64,000 bases of DNA from the NCBI GenBank assembly GCA_017934045.1, contig JAGBKK010000024.1:62001-126000 (forward strand). The letters run 5' to 3'. Each line of letters starts with the position of its first letter. Within the stretch, counting starts at the first letter, position 1. The stretch comes from Neisseriaceae bacterium (GTDB lineage: Bacteria; Pseudomonadota; Gammaproteobacteria; Burkholderiales; Neisseriaceae). The notes below the pieces were generated by a model. The model ran no database searches. It had not been told where the DNA came from and saw nothing but the letters and a program-made list of their open reading frames with translations. The position numbers and the translations under genes are program-made. Below, one piece after another: positions 2,658-59,164 of this stretch.

Positions 2658-3542
2658 TTATTCACTAATGATAAATTGCCGACATATCCGATTGATTTTC
2701 CAATGTTTTACTGCCCATTGTAATAAATTGGCACAATGTTCATCAGGAATAGGCTGTGGCAAATTAAGATATACCAAGACTTTTTTGAGCAATGTTTCTT
2801 TATTCGATAAATCCAAACAAGGAGCAAGCGTTTGTTTTGACCATTTCTGCCCTAATCGATTGGTTAATAAGGGCAAATGTGCATATTGTGGTACAGAATA
2901 TTTCAGGCAGCCTGCAAGATAAATTTGACGGGGCGTAGAAACCAATAAATCTGCCCCACGCACAATATGTGTTACGCCTTGATGAAAATCATCAACCACC
3001 ACCGCCAATTGATAAGCCCACTCACCGTCCGCACGCAACAGCACAAAATCGCCAATGTCGTGTTGCAGATTTTGTTGCTGTATGCCAAAAATTTTATCTT
3101 CAAAAACAATGGGTTGATTATCTGTTTTCATTCGCCACGCAGCTTGCTTGGCATTATGTTCAGGCTGCCTAAAACGGCAATTTCCGTTATAAACCATACC
3201 GTCAATGCCTTGCCGACCGTTTTCCTGTACAGTTTTGCGACTGCAATAGCACGGATAAACCAAATTTTGCCGTTGAAGTTCGTCCAAAGCCGCACGATAC
3301 AAAGCGTGTCGCTGGCTTTGATACACTACGCAATCGTCCCAATGCAAAGAAAATGCGTCCAATGTACGCAAAATATCGTCCGCCGCACCTTTAACTTCAC
3401 GCGGTTTATCCAAGTCTTCCATACGCACCAACCACTTGCCGTTGTTAGCTTTTGCGTCCAAAAAACTTGCCACCGCCGTTAAAAGCGAACCAATATGTAA
3501 ATGCCCAGTAGGACTGGGGGCAAAGCGTCCGATGTATTGCAT
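2658..3542 (-). CDS. gluQRS: Glutamyl-Q tRNA(Asp) synthetase
   Basis: Truncated GluRS paralogue that glutamylates the queuosine at position 34 of tRNA(Asp). The sequence shows [14 protein letters not shown] (HIGH motif) at the N terminus, the zinc site CYC near residue 98 with YNGNC downstream, and a KMSKS-like KWSKQ. Length 294 aa is typical. An uptake palindrome encodes FRQPE inside it, just after the zinc cysteine, and GCLKY further on. The ATG follows another uptake palindrome (3547-3561) by only a few bases and no Shine-Dalgarno site is visible. Confidence 0.95.
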
Positions 3543-3702
3543 TATTTTCAGGCTGCCTGAAAGATTTTTAACAAACGAAATAATTTAAAAACTATATGAT
3601 ATATTTAAATAATTTTTTTATCCTATCATAACCCCCATAAAAAATCAAACCGCACAAACTTCTGCAAATAATCTACGCTTGCTTGACTAAATTTACTTTG
3701 GA

Positions 3703-38524: not shown

Positions 38525-39481
38525 TTAGGCTGCCTGAAAAAAGGCGGCATAGCCTAAAAAGGCGGTGTATGCGATAAAGCAGGTGATGAATACCACGCCT
38601 TGTGGTTTGCCGATTTTTTGTTTGCAGCAGAAAACAAACAGCAAGGCGTTTAAGAACAGCATCACGGCAATGTCGCGGTATAACACTTCGGGGGGGGCAG
38701 CGATGGGGCGGATAACGCCTGCCATGCCCACCACACACATTAAATTGAAGATATTCGAACCTACCACATTACCCAAGGCAATGTCGTCTTCGCCTTTTTT
38801 GGCGGCAATAATGGAAGACGCTAATTCAGGCAGCGATGTGCCAACGGCGACAATGGTTAAGCCAATGATTAAATCGCTCACGCCTAATTTGTGAGCAATT
38901 TCCACCGAACCCCAAACCAGTAATTTGGAACTGGCTACTAATAAAACAAGCCCTGTAATTAGCCAAAATATGGATATGGGTAATGATTTTGCAGGCGGTT
39001 CTTGTTGATAAAATTCATTGCTTTTTTTATGTTGTTTAATGTCAGAAATCACAATAAACGACATAATCAAAATAAATAAACCCAATAATACCCACGATTC
39101 TAAATGCGAAATAACGCCGTTATATGCCATATAGGCAGATAATACTGTTAAAACGGTGAGTATGGGTAAATCTCTTTTGAGAATTTTTTGCGAAGTGGCA
39201 ATAGGATAAATTAGAGCAGTTACCCCTAATATTAAGGCAATATTGGTTATGTTAGAACCGTAAGCATTTCCTAATGCAATACCTGGGCTGTTATCTAATG
39301 CCGCCATAACCGAAACCGTCATTTCAGGGGCAGAAGTACCAAAGCCCACAATCACCATACCGATGATTAAAGACGGAATACCCATAATTTTGGCAACAGA
39401 CGCACTGCCGTCAATAAATTTATCGGCACTCCAAACCAAAATAATCAAACCGATAATAATCGCAAGTAGTGATAATATCAT
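38525..39481 (-). CDS. Calcium/sodium antiporter (CaCA family, YrbG-like)
   Basis: 318 aa with about ten membrane helices. The two alpha repeats are visible: GFGTSAPEMTVSVMAALDNSPGIALGNAYGSNITN and AVGTSLPELASSIIAAKKGEDDIALGNVVGSNIFN, each with the GNxxGSN ion-binding motif. Physiological ion not certain. A C8 run (38690-38697) occurs in the coding strand. The last residues FFQAA-stop come from an uptake sequence. Downstream of lpxK and the CYTH gene on the same strand. Confidence 0.92.
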   Translation of the reverse strand: MILSLLAIIIGLIILVWSADKFIDGSASVAKIMGIPSLIIGMVIVGFGTSAPEMTVSVMAALDNSPGIALGNAYGSNITNIALILGVTALIYPIATSQKILKRDLPILTVLTVLSAYMAYNGVISHLESWVLLGLFILIMSFIVISDIKQHKKSNEFYQQEPPAKSLPISIFWLITGLVLLVASSKLLVWGSVEIAHKLGVSDLIIGLTIVAVGTSLPELASSIIAAKKGEDDIALGNVVGSNIFNLMCVVGMAGVIRPIAAPPEVLYRDIAVMLFLNALLFVFCCKQKIGKPQGVVFITCFIAYTAFLGYAAFFQAA

Positions 39482-45360: not shown

Positions 45361-47523
45361 TTAACCATACAAGCGTTTGGCACTGATAATTTGCGGAATG
45401 CTTTGAATATCGTGCAGAATTTGATTGAGTTGTTTGGTATCGGTAACGCTTAATCCAAAACGCATTTCGACAAAGTCGCCTTTGCCCTCGGGTTGGGGGG
45501 GCATTTCCACATTTTCAATATTGGCGTTTTGAGCAGCAATACAGCCTGCCAATGTGGCTAATAAACCAGGTTGGTCTTGACTGATGACGGATATTTTGGT
45601 GCTGAATTTACCTTCTTTGCCAAGGCAGTCCCAATCGGCATCTAATTGATTTTCAACAGGAATACGGAACAGGTTTTCGCAAGTATCGCTGTGGATAATC
45701 AAACCTTGTTCGGGAATAAGTGCGGCTTTAATCGCGTCTCCTGGTATGGGATTACAACAAGTGGAAATGTGAATATTGCTCACAGGGCTGCCTGAAATTT
45801 TGATTGGTGAAAGTTTGGTTTTACCGCCAAATTTTTCGCCTGCTAAATCCGCAATTTGCATGGCAACGGAAACTGGCAATAATTTGCCCATACCCACATC
45901 GTATAACACATCTTCAAAACGAATGTTTTTGCTTTGTAAATCGGCTAAATATTTGTTTTTGACGGTTTCGGATACCAACAAATGTTGTGGCAAAAGTTGG
46001 GTTAAGGTTTGTAGCAACAGTTTTTCGCCCAAAATAATGGCGTCTTCTTTGCCGATATTTTTTAATCGAGAACGAATGGCACTTCTGGCTCTGGCACTCA
46101 CCACAAAACTTAACCACGCAGGATTGGGGTTAGCGTCTTCTCGTGTGATGATTTCCACCGTGTCGCCTGTGTGCAAGCGTTGTCGCAACGGCACAGGATT
46201 GCCATTAACTTTGGCACCTATGCACGAATGTCCAATGTCGGTATGCACGGCGTATGCGAAATCCACAGGTGTTGAACCTCTTTGCAATACCAAAATTTTG
46301 CCATTGGGCGTGAAAAGGTAAATTTCGTTTTGGTATAAATCCACTTTAATGTGTTCAGAAAATTCAATCGCATTACCGCTATCTTGTTGTAATGCCAAGA
46401 TATTTTGTAACCATTGACGGGTGCGAATAACGGCTTCATCGCGCATTTGATCGGTGCGGTTTTGATACAGCCAGTGTGCCGCAATGCCGTATTCAGCGGT
46501 TTTGTGCATTGCAGGTGTGCGAATTTGCACTTCAATCGGCACGCCTTTGGGGCCCACCAATGTGGTGTGCAAACCTTGATAGCCATTACTTTTGGGCAGA
46601 GCAATAAAGTCTTTAAATCGACCTGGGCGTGGTTTATATAAAGCGTGCAACGCACCCATTGTGCGGTAACAATCGTCAATCGATCGCACAACAATGCGTA
46701 AGCCATATAAATTACACACTTCGGCAAAGCGTTTATGACGGCCACGCATTTTGTTGTAAATGCTGTATAAATTTTTTTGGCGTGTTTTGATTTTAGCTTC
46801 GATATTATAAGACGCTAATTGCAACTGAAACGCTTGCATAATTTCTGCAATGGCTTCTTTTTGTTCGCTATGCCAACGATTTAAGGCAGCCTGAAAAACG
46901 GTGTAGCGGCGTGGGTGAATGTTATAAAACGACAAATCTTGCAATTCACGATACACAGGATTCATACCAATGCGATTGGCAAGCAGGGCGTAAGTTTCCA
47001 GCGTTTCGCGTGCAATGCGGCGGCGTTTGTCAGGTCGCATTGAACCCAAAGTTCGCATATTGTGCAGGCGGTCGGAGAGTTTGACAATCAGCACACGAAT
47101 GTCTTTCACCATAGCCAACACCATTTTGCGGAAACTTTCCGCTTGGTGTTCTATGTAATTGTTAAAATTGATTTTTTCTAATTTAGATAAACCATCAACC
47201 ACTTCGGCAATCGTGCCGCCAAATTCTTTCGCTAATTCAGATTTACTTGTACCTGTATCTTCTAACACATCGTGCAGTAAAGCACTGACTACGGTTTTTG
47301 CGTCCAACTGCCATTTAGCGACTTCGGTCGCCACCGCAATGGGGTGCGTGATATACGGCTCGCCCGATTGACGCGTTTGTCCTTGGTGTTTGATAAAAGC
47401 GTAATCGCACGCTTTTTCAATTAAGGCAAAATCGTCCGCACCAAAATACGAGGCAGCCTGAAATAAGGTGTCTTTGGCTTGTTGAGAAATGGGGTCGTAT
47501 TGTGGTGCGGCGTGGTCGGGCAT
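45361..47523 (-). CDS. spoT: Bifunctional (p)ppGpp synthetase/hydrolase SpoT (Rsh)
   Basis: 720 aa. Unlike the paralogue at 32024-34237, the HD hydrolase site is intact (ALLHDVLEDTGT; YITHPIAVA). Synthetase domain contains LYGLRIVVRSIDDCYRTMG and FKDFIALPKSNGYQGLHTTLVG. TGS domain (LFTPNGKILVLQRGSTPVDFAY), zinc-finger-like STCCNPIPGD and C-terminal ACT domain. Third gene of gmk-rpoZ-spoT; 8 nt after rpoZ. Confidence 0.97.
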   Translation of the reverse strand: MPDHAAPQYDPISQQAKDTLFQAASYFGADDFALIEKACDYAFIKHQGQTRQSGEPYITHPIAVATEVAKWQLDAKTVVSALLHDVLEDTGTSKSELAKEFGGTIAEVVDGLSKLEKINFNNYIEHQAESFRKMVLAMVKDIRVLIVKLSDRLHNMRTLGSMRPDKRRRIARETLETYALLANRIGMNPVYRELQDLSFYNIHPRRYTVFQAALNRWHSEQKEAIAEIMQAFQLQLASYNIEAKIKTRQKNLYSIYNKMRGRHKRFAEVCNLYGLRIVVRSIDDCYRTMGALHALYKPRPGRFKDFIALPKSNGYQGLHTTLVGPKGVPIEVQIRTPAMHKTAEYGIAAHWLYQNRTDQMRDEAVIRTRQWLQNILALQQDSGNAIEFSEHIKVDLYQNEIYLFTPNGKILVLQRGSTPVDFAYAVHTDIGHSCIGAKVNGNPVPLRQRLHTGDTVEIITREDANPNPAWLSFVVSARARSAIRSRLKNIGKEDAIILGEKLLLQTLTQLLPQHLLVSETVKNKYLADLQSKNIRFEDVLYDVGMGKLLPVSVAMQIADLAGEKFGGKTKLSPIKISGSPVSNIHISTCCNPIPGDAIKAALIPEQGLIIHSDTCENLFRIPVENQLDADWDCLGKEGKFSTKISVISQDQPGLLATLAGCIAAQNANIENVEMPPQPEGKGDFVEMRFGLSVTDTKQLNQILHDIQSIPQIISAKRLYG

Positions 47524-55616: not shown

Positions 55617-55907
55617 ATTTTTCAGGCTGCCTGAAAGGTGGTGTGCAATGTCGTTGTAATGGATAGGCTACCCGAATTTATTGCTTATGCAATAAATTCG
55701 GAGATTGCCACGAGTGCTACGCACGCTTGCAATGACGGTTGGGGCTGTCTGACACATTTTTTTATATTAGCAAAAACTGTAAATTATTGATATTTCAATA
55801 TATCAGCACTTTCTTATATACAAAAATAATGCAAAAAATTGATGACAAGATGAAAAAATTTAAGGTAGAATTAAGGCGTTTTTTAACACTTTGTTAAAGG
55901 AAAAACA
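55617..55907. other. Intergenic region with palindromic element
   Basis: Uptake palindrome 55621-55635 and a palindromic repeat (next entry), then AT-rich DNA with AAAGG before ATG 55908. No gene other than the downstream phase-variable one. Confidence 0.5.
55648..55739. repeat. Short palindromic repetitive element with TCGTTG/CAATGACG-type ends
   Basis: Starts TGTCGTTGTAATGG and ends TTGCAATGACGG; the interior has a perfect CCGAATTTATTGC / GCAATAAATTCGG hairpin (55672-55701). Related in its ends to the insert in purL (62056-62119) and the element at 56541-56584. Confidence 0.55.
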
Positions 55908-56500
55908 ATGAACGCCGTTCTCAAACCACTTGGCAAACAGGTTCGCCAAATTTTACCCCCCCCCCCGATGATAATCATTCTCAATTAGTTGCTTATCGTT
56001 CAGGCAGCCTGAAAAGGTTGTTTGCTCCTTTATGTATCGCTCTTATGGGCGTATTTTTTGTGTCCAATGCACAAGCGGTAACTGTTTGTCATATAGAACA
56101 TTTTCAACTTACCTATTGTCCCAAAGACACAGGACTTGCTAAAAGTACTTCTCGTGCCATGAAATTACCGTGCAGGAAAGCAGGTAAGCCAGTAGAAGTG
56201 CAAGTTTGTCGTGAAATTCATCAACGATTACCACATGGGCAAGAACTTTTGGAACGGCTCAAAGGTCAAGCCTTGCGTGATGAAACTATTATGGTTGATT
56301 CGTCCGTTTGGGCAGGATTGCGAAATAATCAAGAGTTCATTGATACTGAAATTGACGCAAGTCAATTAAATCAATCTGTTCGTTTCGATGAGTCAGTGGG
56401 CAGTCGATTAGAGCGTAATCCGTCTGTTCAAGTTTTACCCAAAGAAACTATTCAGCCTGTTCAAGGCAATAGGATAAAACAGGATGTAATTAGGAAATAA
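55908..56500 (+). CDS. Phase-variable secreted Cys-containing protein, OFF in this sequence
   Basis: ATG 55908 has AAAGG 7 nt upstream. Its frame passes through C11 (55956-55966) and stops at TAG about 55986. With C12 or C9 it would continue into the downstream frame to 56500, giving a product of about 197 aa: basic N terminus, DUS-encoded SGSLKR, signal helix LFAPLCIALMGVFF ending SNAQA, then a mature part with four Cys (VCHIEH, TYCPK, LPCRK, VQVCRE) and a polar tail. As written the tract is OFF. The mature protein is not recognised; two disulfides are likely. Its signal helix is nearly the same as that of the autotransporter that follows. Confidence 0.75.
55956..55966 (+). repeat. Poly-C tract (C11), phase-variation site
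   Basis: Eleven C between ATTTTA and GATGAT in codons 17-20 of the preceding gene. One gained base or two lost restores the frame. Confidence 0.9.
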
Positions 56501-56584: not shown

Positions 56585-56650
56585 TAGTTTTATGGAAGAA
56601 AAGTTCTCTGTAAAACGCAAACTTTTTTAACTTTTCATAAGGACACAATG

Positions 56651-59164
56651 ATGAATAAAACATTTCGAGTGATTTTTAATCACGCCACGCAACAATGGGT
56701 TGCGGTTTCTGAACTGGCTCGTGTTAATGGCAAACACACACAAAGCAATCAAAACAGCGTTTCAGGCAGCCTGAAAAAGGCATTTGCTCCGTTGTGCTTG
56801 GCTTTAATGGGCATTTTTTTTGCACCTATGGTTTTTGCAGATGTAGTAGGATGTGCACAGGATACTGGATTAGGTTATTTTTCATGTGGGGTTAACATTC
56901 TATCTACACCAGGTAAAAACTCTCTTACCTTTGGTGGGCAGAACGAAGCAAAAGGGGAGAGTTCTTCTGCCTTTGGTATGGCGAACACGGCAACAGGTCG
57001 ATACTCTGCGGCGTTTGGGTATGACAATCGAGCAGAATCTGATAATTCTTCTGCATTTGGTGTGGATAATCGTACAACTGCTATGTTATCTTCTGCATTT
57101 GGGGTTGGTAACAGGGCAAAAGGTGAATATTCTTCCGCCTTTGGTGCGAAAAGCCAAGCCATTGTGGATTATGGCACGGCAATCGGCTATAAATCTTACG
57201 CTGACCGTGCCGCTTGGGATAGTAGCAGCAATAATTATTCTGCTGCATTTGCACCGTCCGATATGAGTGGTTTTGACGCAAAACAAAAAGCGGCTTGGCA
57301 AGCGACTTCGGCGGCTTTGGCTGTGGGCGACCCAAATGGTACTGGCAATAGTAACAAACCAATCACTCGCCAAATTACAGGCGTGGCGGCTGGCAGTGAA
57401 GATACAGACGCTGTGAATGTGGCACAGTTAAAAGAAGTGGCAGGTATGGTGAGTGGCGGCAGTTCGTTTAGTCCAATTAGCGTGTCGGGTAATACAGGCA
57501 ATTTCAGCGTAGGCAGTGCAGGCAAGCTGAACATTCAAGGCGATGGCACCAATATCACCACAACAGCCAGTGGCGACACGGTTACGATTGGTTTGAGCAG
57601 TGCTTTGAAAACTCAAATTAACACTGCCATCGCAACTGTGGGTACATTAAATACCACTGTTACAAACTTGGGTACTACGGTTGCTGGTTTGGAGACTGAA
57701 ATTAAGGCAGTGGAAACTAATGTAGTCGCATACGACGGTCGAATCACTGCTAATAAAGACAAGATTACGCAACTGGAAAACAACCACAATGCTTTGTCTG
57801 GCGAAGTTACTAACATAAGCAATGCCATGGCGAATAAAGCCGATCAATCGTGGGTTACTGATCAAATCAATAATGCGGCATTAGGCGGCACTGGCGTGGA
57901 TTTAAGCGAATACGCCAAAACCGCAGACGCGAACGCTTACGCTGATACAGCGGCTAATACGGCTGAAAACAACGCCAAAGGTTATACCGATAGCGAAGTG
58001 GCAAAAGCCAAAACGGCGGCAAATACTTATGCCGACACTGCGGCAAACAAAGCCAAAACGGACGCACAAACTTATGCGGATAATGCTGTGAAAGATAAAG
58101 CCACGCAATCGTGGGTTAAAGATGAAATCAATAAAGCGGCATTAAGCGGCACTGGCATGGATTTAAGCGAATACGCCAAAACCGCAGACGCTAACGCTTA
58201 CGCTGATACAGCGGCTAATACGGCTGAAAATAACGCCAAAGGTTATACCGATAGCGAAGTGGCAAAAGCCAAATCGTATGCTGATAATGCGGCTAATACA
58301 GCGGAAACAAACGCCAAAGGTTATACCGATAGTAAATTGGGCGATTACAGCACCACAACGGATATGAATAAGGCGATTGATACCGCAAAAGCAGACGCAA
58401 ACAAATACGCCGACACTGCGGCAAACAAAGCCAAAACAGACGCTAATGCTTATACAGACGGCAAGTTGGCAGATAATGCTACGCAAACATGGGTGAATAA
58501 TCAAAAATTCGCCCAACAACAAGCGGTTACTGACTTAAACAGCAGAGTGGATAAGTTGGTGGTAACAGGCGGCGGTTATGAACATATTACCGTTGCAGGC
58601 GAAAATGGTTCGTTTAATGTGGCAAACAAAGAAACCGCAAAATTTGTGGGCGATGGCAAAAACATTACCACAGACGCATCAGGCGGCGAAGTGAAAATTA
58701 GCCTTGCTGATGATATTGCGGTTAATAGCGTGAATGCTGGCGGCACTGTGGTTAATCAAAACGGCGTTGCCCTGCCGTCTGGCGTGGCATTGACAAACGG
58801 CGGCTTAAATAACGGCGGTCAGGTGATTAGCAATGTCGCACCAGGCGTTCGCCCAACAGACGCTGTGAATGTGAGCCAGTTAAATAATGCTATGGGCGGC
58901 GTGTATGGACGCATTGACAGTATGGAAAAACACGCCAACGCAGGTATTGCACAAGCCATGGCAACAGGTGCGATGATGACTTCAACACAAGCAGGACAAG
59001 GCTTTTTATCCTTATCAGGCAGCACTTACCGTGGCGAACAAGGCTATGCAATGGGCTATTCGCATATGTCCGATAGCGGCAAATGGGGCGTGAAATTTAT
59101 CGGCTCGGGCAATTCTCGCGGTAAATTCGGCGGTGCCGCTTCCGTAGGATTTAGATTGTATTGA
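56651..59164 (+). CDS. YadA-like trimeric autotransporter adhesin
   Basis: 837 aa from ATG 56651 (AAGG 7 nt upstream). The extended signal peptide starts MNKTFRVIFNHATQQWVAVS, then a hydrophobic core to FADV. YadA head repeats (about residues 75-190) with SSAFG / AFGxxNxA units, neck ITGVAAGSEDTDAVNVAQL near 240, alanine-rich coiled-coil stalk (about 320-620) with an 87-residue internal repeat starting WVTDQINNAAL and WVKDEINKAAL, second neck PGVRPTDAVNVSQLNN, C-terminal membrane anchor ending GGAASVGFRLY. Surface trimer, likely adhesion. Uptake sequence codes SGSLKK in the signal region. Confidence 0.93.
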   Translation: MNKTFRVIFNHATQQWVAVSELARVNGKHTQSNQNSVSGSLKKAFAPLCLALMGIFFAPMVFADVVGCAQDTGLGYFSCGVNILSTPGKNSLTFGGQNEAKGESSSAFGMANTATGRYSAAFGYDNRAESDNSSAFGVDNRTTAMLSSAFGVGNRAKGEYSSAFGAKSQAIVDYGTAIGYKSYADRAAWDSSSNNYSAAFAPSDMSGFDAKQKAAWQATSAALAVGDPNGTGNSNKPITRQITGVAAGSEDTDAVNVAQLKEVAGMVSGGSSFSPISVSGNTGNFSVGSAGKLNIQGDGTNITTTASGDTVTIGLSSALKTQINTAIATVGTLNTTVTNLGTTVAGLETEIKAVETNVVAYDGRITANKDKITQLENNHNALSGEVTNISNAMANKADQSWVTDQINNAALGGTGVDLSEYAKTADANAYADTAANTAENNAKGYTDSEVAKAKTAANTYADTAANKAKTDAQTYADNAVKDKATQSWVKDEINKAALSGTGMDLSEYAKTADANAYADTAANTAENNAKGYTDSEVAKAKSYADNAANTAETNAKGYTDSKLGDYSTTTDMNKAIDTAKADANKYADTAANKAKTDANAYTDGKLADNATQTWVNNQKFAQQQAVTDLNSRVDKLVVTGGGYEHITVAGENGSFNVANKETAKFVGDGKNITTDASGGEVKISLADDIAVNSVNAGGTVVNQNGVALPSGVALTNGGLNNGGQVISNVAPGVRPTDAVNVSQLNNAMGGVYGRIDSMEKHANAGIAQAMATGAMMTSTQAGQGFLSLSGSTYRGEQGYAMGYSHMSDSGKWGVKFIGSGNSRGKFGGAASVGFRLY
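57851..58273 (+). repeat. 87-codon internal stalk repeat of the autotransporter
   Basis: Segments starting at 57851 and 58112 (offset 261 bp) are nearly identical over about 160 bp (TGGGTTACTGATCAAATCAA versus TGGGTTAAAGATGAAATCAA). Recombination between them could change stalk length. Confidence 0.8.

Follow-up and report, generated by a model that had tools for sequence, protein, structure and literature searches.

Comparison with described systems

The nearest known case to the locus described here is Hag of Moraxella catarrhalis, in which a G tract lies near the start of the open reading frame (ORF) (PMC1931440). A slippage switch is the standard model. The locus lies in a Neisseriaceae genome, in a stretch of 64,000 nucleotides that was analyzed as a whole and is referred to below as the window. 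The likeness to Hag/MID, as described in PMC1931440 and PMC7302503, concerns a homopolymer near the ORF start, a surface autotransporter, and translational phase variation. In Hag/MID the tract is of G and confined to one gene, whereas here a C tract sits in a cassette between a leader or ESPR and the signal core, and this cassette is common to several autotransporter-type genes and a small gene of non-autotransporter type. The mechanism is already known from Moraxella Hag; the shared cassette is new. In the titles and abstract openings of openly accessible journal papers, no earlier account was found of a poly-C cassette that separates the ESPR from the signal core, or of phase variation in the ruminant Neisseriaceae considered here.

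The poly-C/poly-G contingency genes of Neisseria meningitidis belong to the same family and likewise tie simple-sequence tracts to surface genes (PMC5084427). Unlike them, our cassette was absent from all 76 family genomes searched beyond the genus. No seven-C run followed an ESPR-like motif in those genomes, the matches in eight of them being mixed G/C. The ESPR (PF13018) has been described in type V proteins (PMC8151025), and four of the seven cassettes carry an ESPR above the family cut-off. The resemblance ends where the ESPR on contig C3 of the window's own genome (G000) precedes, out of frame, a mature part of 119 amino acids in which no autotransporter domain was found, and where the window gene has the cassette and no ESPR. 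A further parallel concerns the kingDUS and simDUS dialects of Kingella oralis and Simonsiella muelleri; the latter carries both about equally often, frequently in overlap (PMC3630211). Two such 12-mers also form overlapping dyads in the window, whereas the dyad at our locus recurs as coding sequence within the signal peptide (SGSLK).

Anatomy of the poly-C locus

The gene begins with an ATG at 55908-55910, with TTAAAGGAAAAACA immediately upstream and a Shine-Dalgarno-like AAAGGA. The 5′ leader frame (MNAVLKPLGKQVRQILPPPP..., 55908-55988, forward strand) reads MNAVLKPLGKQVRQIL from the ATG and then enters a tract of 11 C (55956-55966, forward strand). It is out of frame with the remainder and ends at a TAG at 55986-55988, at most seven codons after the tract, giving a product of 26 residues. 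The downstream coding frame (55967-56500, forward strand) is composed of the linker DDNHSQLVAYRSGSLKR, the signal segment, the mature protein, and a stop codon (56498-56500). This post-tract frame is free of stops over 55898-56500 (200 codons from stop to stop), and 177 of its codons follow the C11 tract. The hydrophobic core and cleavage region, LFAPLCIALMGVFFVSNAQA (56018-56077, forward strand), terminates in NAQA and was recognized by eye as a signal peptide. The mature part (56078-56497, forward strand) comprises 140 amino acids with four invariant cysteines and belongs to an orphan family.

The original prediction of an ATG with a Shine-Dalgarno sequence, a C11 tract, and an early stop was confirmed. 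The joined product of about 197 amino acids also agrees, with 20 residues to the end of the tract and 177 after it. Two separated coding halves around a long C tract are supported, and the gene is presently OFF, as claimed, the leader and downstream frames being out of register in the assembly. A promoter-like site, ATGACA-18-TAGAAT (55842-55871, forward strand), reached 10/12 in a consensus scan; the scan returned two sites where shuffled sequences averaged 3.3, and thus gives no support for a function of this site.

The C11 tract is far beyond chance. It is the sole C or G run of at least nine in the window, where C9 matched three times, in overlapping positions, while shuffled sequences averaged 0.09. 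By a first-order estimate, C or G runs of at least 11 would number 0.003 per window. Shorter G runs, G8 at 38690-38697 and G7 at 45495-45501, lie inside long open frames of the window.

Long tracts were also observed elsewhere in the same genome, each near position 1501 of its locus. On contig C21 (L070), a C12 run stands between a long ORF and, just downstream of the run, a UDP-GlcNAc 2-epimerase gene; it may be a phase-variable switch, of the promoter type, for polysaccharide genes. On contig C29 (L075), an ORF is broken into two frames by a C12 run, which reads G12 on the coding strand; neither part of this ORF has a Pfam family. The gene beside this split ORF is presumably lpxC. On contig C28 (L074), a G9 run on the coding strand lies within a type I restriction specificity (HsdS) gene whose frame is open.

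A recurring 5′ cassette in the genus

The window gene is not alone in having the switch, which belongs to a genus-specific 5′ cassette that also heads trimeric autotransporters. The order of the cassette is a 5′ leader, poly-C, TGATAATCATTCTCA, a DNA-uptake dyad, and a signal peptide. Seven genomes of the genus were searched with ACCCC, 0-12 bases, and then GATAATCATTCTCA, and the cassette was found at seven places in four of them; a second pattern, applied to 83 family genomes, returned the same seven places in the same four genomes, all within the genus. It was absent from the viral sequence collection. Among named genomes, the cassette pattern was found on four contigs of three ruminant-foregut Neisseriaceae metagenome-assembled genomes (MAGs), from sheep omasum, roe deer abomasum, and yak reticulum; the window genome is probably likewise ruminant-associated. 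A pattern match in a Selenomonadaceae MAG (L049) lay between ORFs and not in a leader, and was set aside as unrelated; at 3539-3563, it consists of a C run followed by TTGATAATCATTCTCA and looks like an ordinary operator site.

The tracts of the seven cassettes measure 7, 7, 8, 8, 8, 9, and 11, thus covering all three residue classes with four lengths and both in-frame and out-of-frame states, in a comparison between paralogues and species with one genome per species. The tract is C11 ahead of the small four-cysteine gene of the window and C8 on contig C3 of the same genome, where an ESPR is followed by the small four-cysteine protein out of frame. In G002, contig C6 holds a C8 tract and, 1.7 kb further on, a second cassette with C7, and contig C27 holds another C8 tract. 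The tract is C7 in G001 and C9 in G006. Only in G006, which has an ESPR leader, does the leader continue into the downstream frame, and in this sole in-frame copy the contig breaks off shortly past the tract. The original prediction cited poly-C and poly-G switching of surface genes in Neisseria; the organism is not Neisseria itself. All three length classes are present across the genus, as would be expected under phase variation.

Three cassettes head autotransporter-type genes, one of them cut by the contig end, and four head the small four-cysteine protein. The ESPR cassettes of G002 contig C6 and G001 are followed, out of frame, by frames that encode YadA domains, while the G006 copy is taken for an autotransporter from the likeness of its leader to autotransporter leaders. 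Three of the small-gene copies (that of the window and two in G002) share the leader MNA(V/I)LKPLGKQVRQIL and have no ESPR; one G002 copy of this leader is identical to that of the window, and the other differs by one amino acid and one synonymous change. The genus holds 24 ESPR hits, four of which have the cassette. Of the 20 others, the 19 that were read at the expected start showed no C or G run of at least six between the ESPR and the signal core; L023, read out of register, was left uncounted. Synonymous changes with residues retained are seen in the ESPR half of the cassette as well as in its downstream half, and coding constraint is found on both sides of the tract; the window-type leader alone differs too little for a judgement.

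The small four-cysteine protein and its autotransporter neighbor

In agreement with the original prediction, the mature protein has no recognized family in Pfam, NCBIfam, or PHROGs, and its four cysteines are present and invariant in all four homologues. Acyltransferase matches in Pfam and NCBIfam (E 0.05 and 0.027) were far below cut-off and were rejected. A PDB profile search gave chance-level matches only (best E 0.18), and AlphaFold2, run on the mature part with three sequences, returned a mean pLDDT of 34.8 and a pTM of 0.22. Homologues of the small protein number four, including that of the window, in two of 61 genomes. Against 399 genomes of the order, its profile matched three (G000, G001, and G382), the G001 match covering the signal region only; the G382 match (E 0.008, likewise signal region only) was taken as chance.

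None of the four copies of the small gene is in frame, and they share a single residue class (8, 8, 8, 11). The mature frame is nevertheless open in all four, for which the simulated chance per gene is at most 0.002, while the other five frames of each mature region hold 4-23 stops apiece. Homologue pairs range in dS from 0.13 to 1.34, with dN below dS in six of six pairs and dN/dS of about 0.45-0.67. Since the mature frames have stayed open despite dS of up to 1.3, the small genes are not simple pseudogenes. This weak but real constraint on out-of-register frames fits a gene that may be switched on at times, without proving so.

The link to a trimeric autotransporter proved stronger than originally claimed, through a shared signal cassette and through synteny. 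Wherever the order could be resolved, in three cases, an autotransporter gene follows the small gene directly and in the same orientation; the fourth copy sits at a contig end. The neighbor in the window (56648-59164, forward strand; Pfam) has an ESPR, a YadA head, a stalk, and an anchor, and begins 147 nt downstream of the small gene; the gap is about 1 kb on G002 contig C6 and short on G002 contig C27, where the autotransporter has no ESPR hit. The signal-region DNA at 55999-56060 (62 nt) recurs at 79% identity in the window's autotransporter, which has no C or G run of at least six in its first 420 nt. The window protein itself has no YadA head, stalk, or anchor by Pfam and is not among the seven ESPR hits of its genome, while its homologue on contig C3 carries an ESPR at 44.1 bits (cut-off 25). 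G001 has a cassette autotransporter and no small gene.

Fur-like box and uptake dyad

Directly after the tract and inside the coding region lies TGATAATCATTCTCA (55969-55983, forward strand), which resembles a 7-1-7 Fur box. Compared by hand with the 7-1-7 consensus TGATAATNATTATCA, it matches at 13 of 14 positions. It is identical in all seven cassettes, most of its letters having been demanded by the search pattern. When the box was searched with M for one base, the window's own genome gave exact matches at two sites only, both in cassettes, and this genome encodes one Fur-family protein. None of the first six codon columns varies synonymously, against 16 of 50 overall (chance about 0.08, by hand), which is only suggestive of conservation at the DNA level. 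The best boxes in four TonB-receptor promoters score 11, 11, 12, and 11 of 14, and random 330-base sequences reach 11/14 in 2-8.5% of cases. The weaker TonB-receptor sites, the position within a coding region, and a deficit of synonymous change that is not significant count against a Fur reading, and the box remains a putative lead.

The overlapping kingDUS/simDUS dyad TTCAGGCAGCCTGAA (55999-56013, forward strand) is translated within SGSLK. The window contains 58 kingDUS and 64 simDUS 12-mers, mostly in overlapping dyads. Taken together, the cassette could be imagined as a transformable, iron-sensing secretion switch, in which the dyad would aid spread, the C tract would render phase-variable whatever protein follows it, and a Fur operator within the coding region, immediately past the tract, would supply iron control. 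We regard this reading as speculative and rather unlikely; if true, trimeric autotransporters and small four-cysteine partners would be switched independently by one interchangeable part.

Probable phase variation and alternative explanations

Judged on sequence, the window gene is most probably a contingency gene with translational phase variation by slipped-strand mispairing in the C tract, slippage within populations being part of what we infer. Replication slippage would alter the length of the C tract, which would set whether the downstream signal peptide and mature protein share the frame of the leader. In the off state, translation would end after a short peptide; in the on state, it would continue into the signal peptide and the mature part, with the mature protein presumably exported by the Sec pathway and serving a surface or periplasmic role beside the downstream trimeric autotransporter. 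The cassette as a whole is likely an on/off switch for surface proteins. The window's own genome has four C runs of at least nine, among them those in an HsdS gene, just upstream of a UDP-GlcNAc 2-epimerase gene, and in a split ORF, and these count in favor of phase variation. Against it count the single residue class of the four out-of-frame small-gene copies, the lengths of 7-9 in six of the seven tracts (all but that of the window), at the low end for mutability, and the possibility that draft assemblies miscount a homopolymer. In PMC7302503, single-nucleotide tracts seen solely at 7 or 8 were dropped.

A small secreted protein broken by a frameshift in the tract, with the gene now a pseudogene and the tract a relic, would account for the lack of any in-frame copy among the four, for the weak constraint, and for the presence of the protein in only two of 61 genomes. 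We consider such decay improbable, given four mature frames that are all open at dS of up to 1.3 amid alternative frames full of stops, cysteines invariant in every copy, and the same tract ahead of large open autotransporter frames. An assembly or sequencing artefact, with a miscounted tract in a gene that is plainly in frame and never switches, is suggested by the draft state of the window genome (43 contigs), the metagenomic assembly of the named congeners, and the error-proneness of homopolymers; it is very improbable, as out-of-frame lengths occur in six of the seven copies and in three of the four cassette-holding assemblies, and short reads normally call runs of 7 and 8 bases correctly.

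Two further explanations were weighed. The frames could be joined at a set rate, with the DNA unchanged, if the ribosome or the polymerase slipped along the C run, and the four small-gene copies do fall in one residue class, as a fixed shift requires; yet the ESPR copies that head autotransporters measure 7, 7, and 9, the two other classes, so no single shift serves all, and we hold programmed frameshifting to be highly improbable. Translation might instead restart after the tract and yield an ordinary signal peptide, a change of length then swapping an extended for a short signal. The signal segment does lie wholly after the tract, and a TTG is available at 56018, but this TTG lacks a Shine-Dalgarno sequence at proper spacing, and the codon reads TTA in the G002 contig C6 copy and is missing from the contig C3 copy of the window's genome. 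The downstream frame has no conserved start codon ahead of the hydrophobic core, which makes a restart hardly credible. Phase variation by slippage in the tract is the explanation that we prefer.

Biological significance

If this reading is true, a ruminant-associated genus of Neisseriaceae varies its surface through a single reusable 5′ part and not separately for each gene. The extended signal peptide could then serve small non-autotransporter proteins, and the small four-cysteine protein may partner trimeric autotransporters. As Neisseriaceae are described as a core taxon of the rumen epithelium (PMC8005654), a switching of adhesion there would be ecologically interesting.
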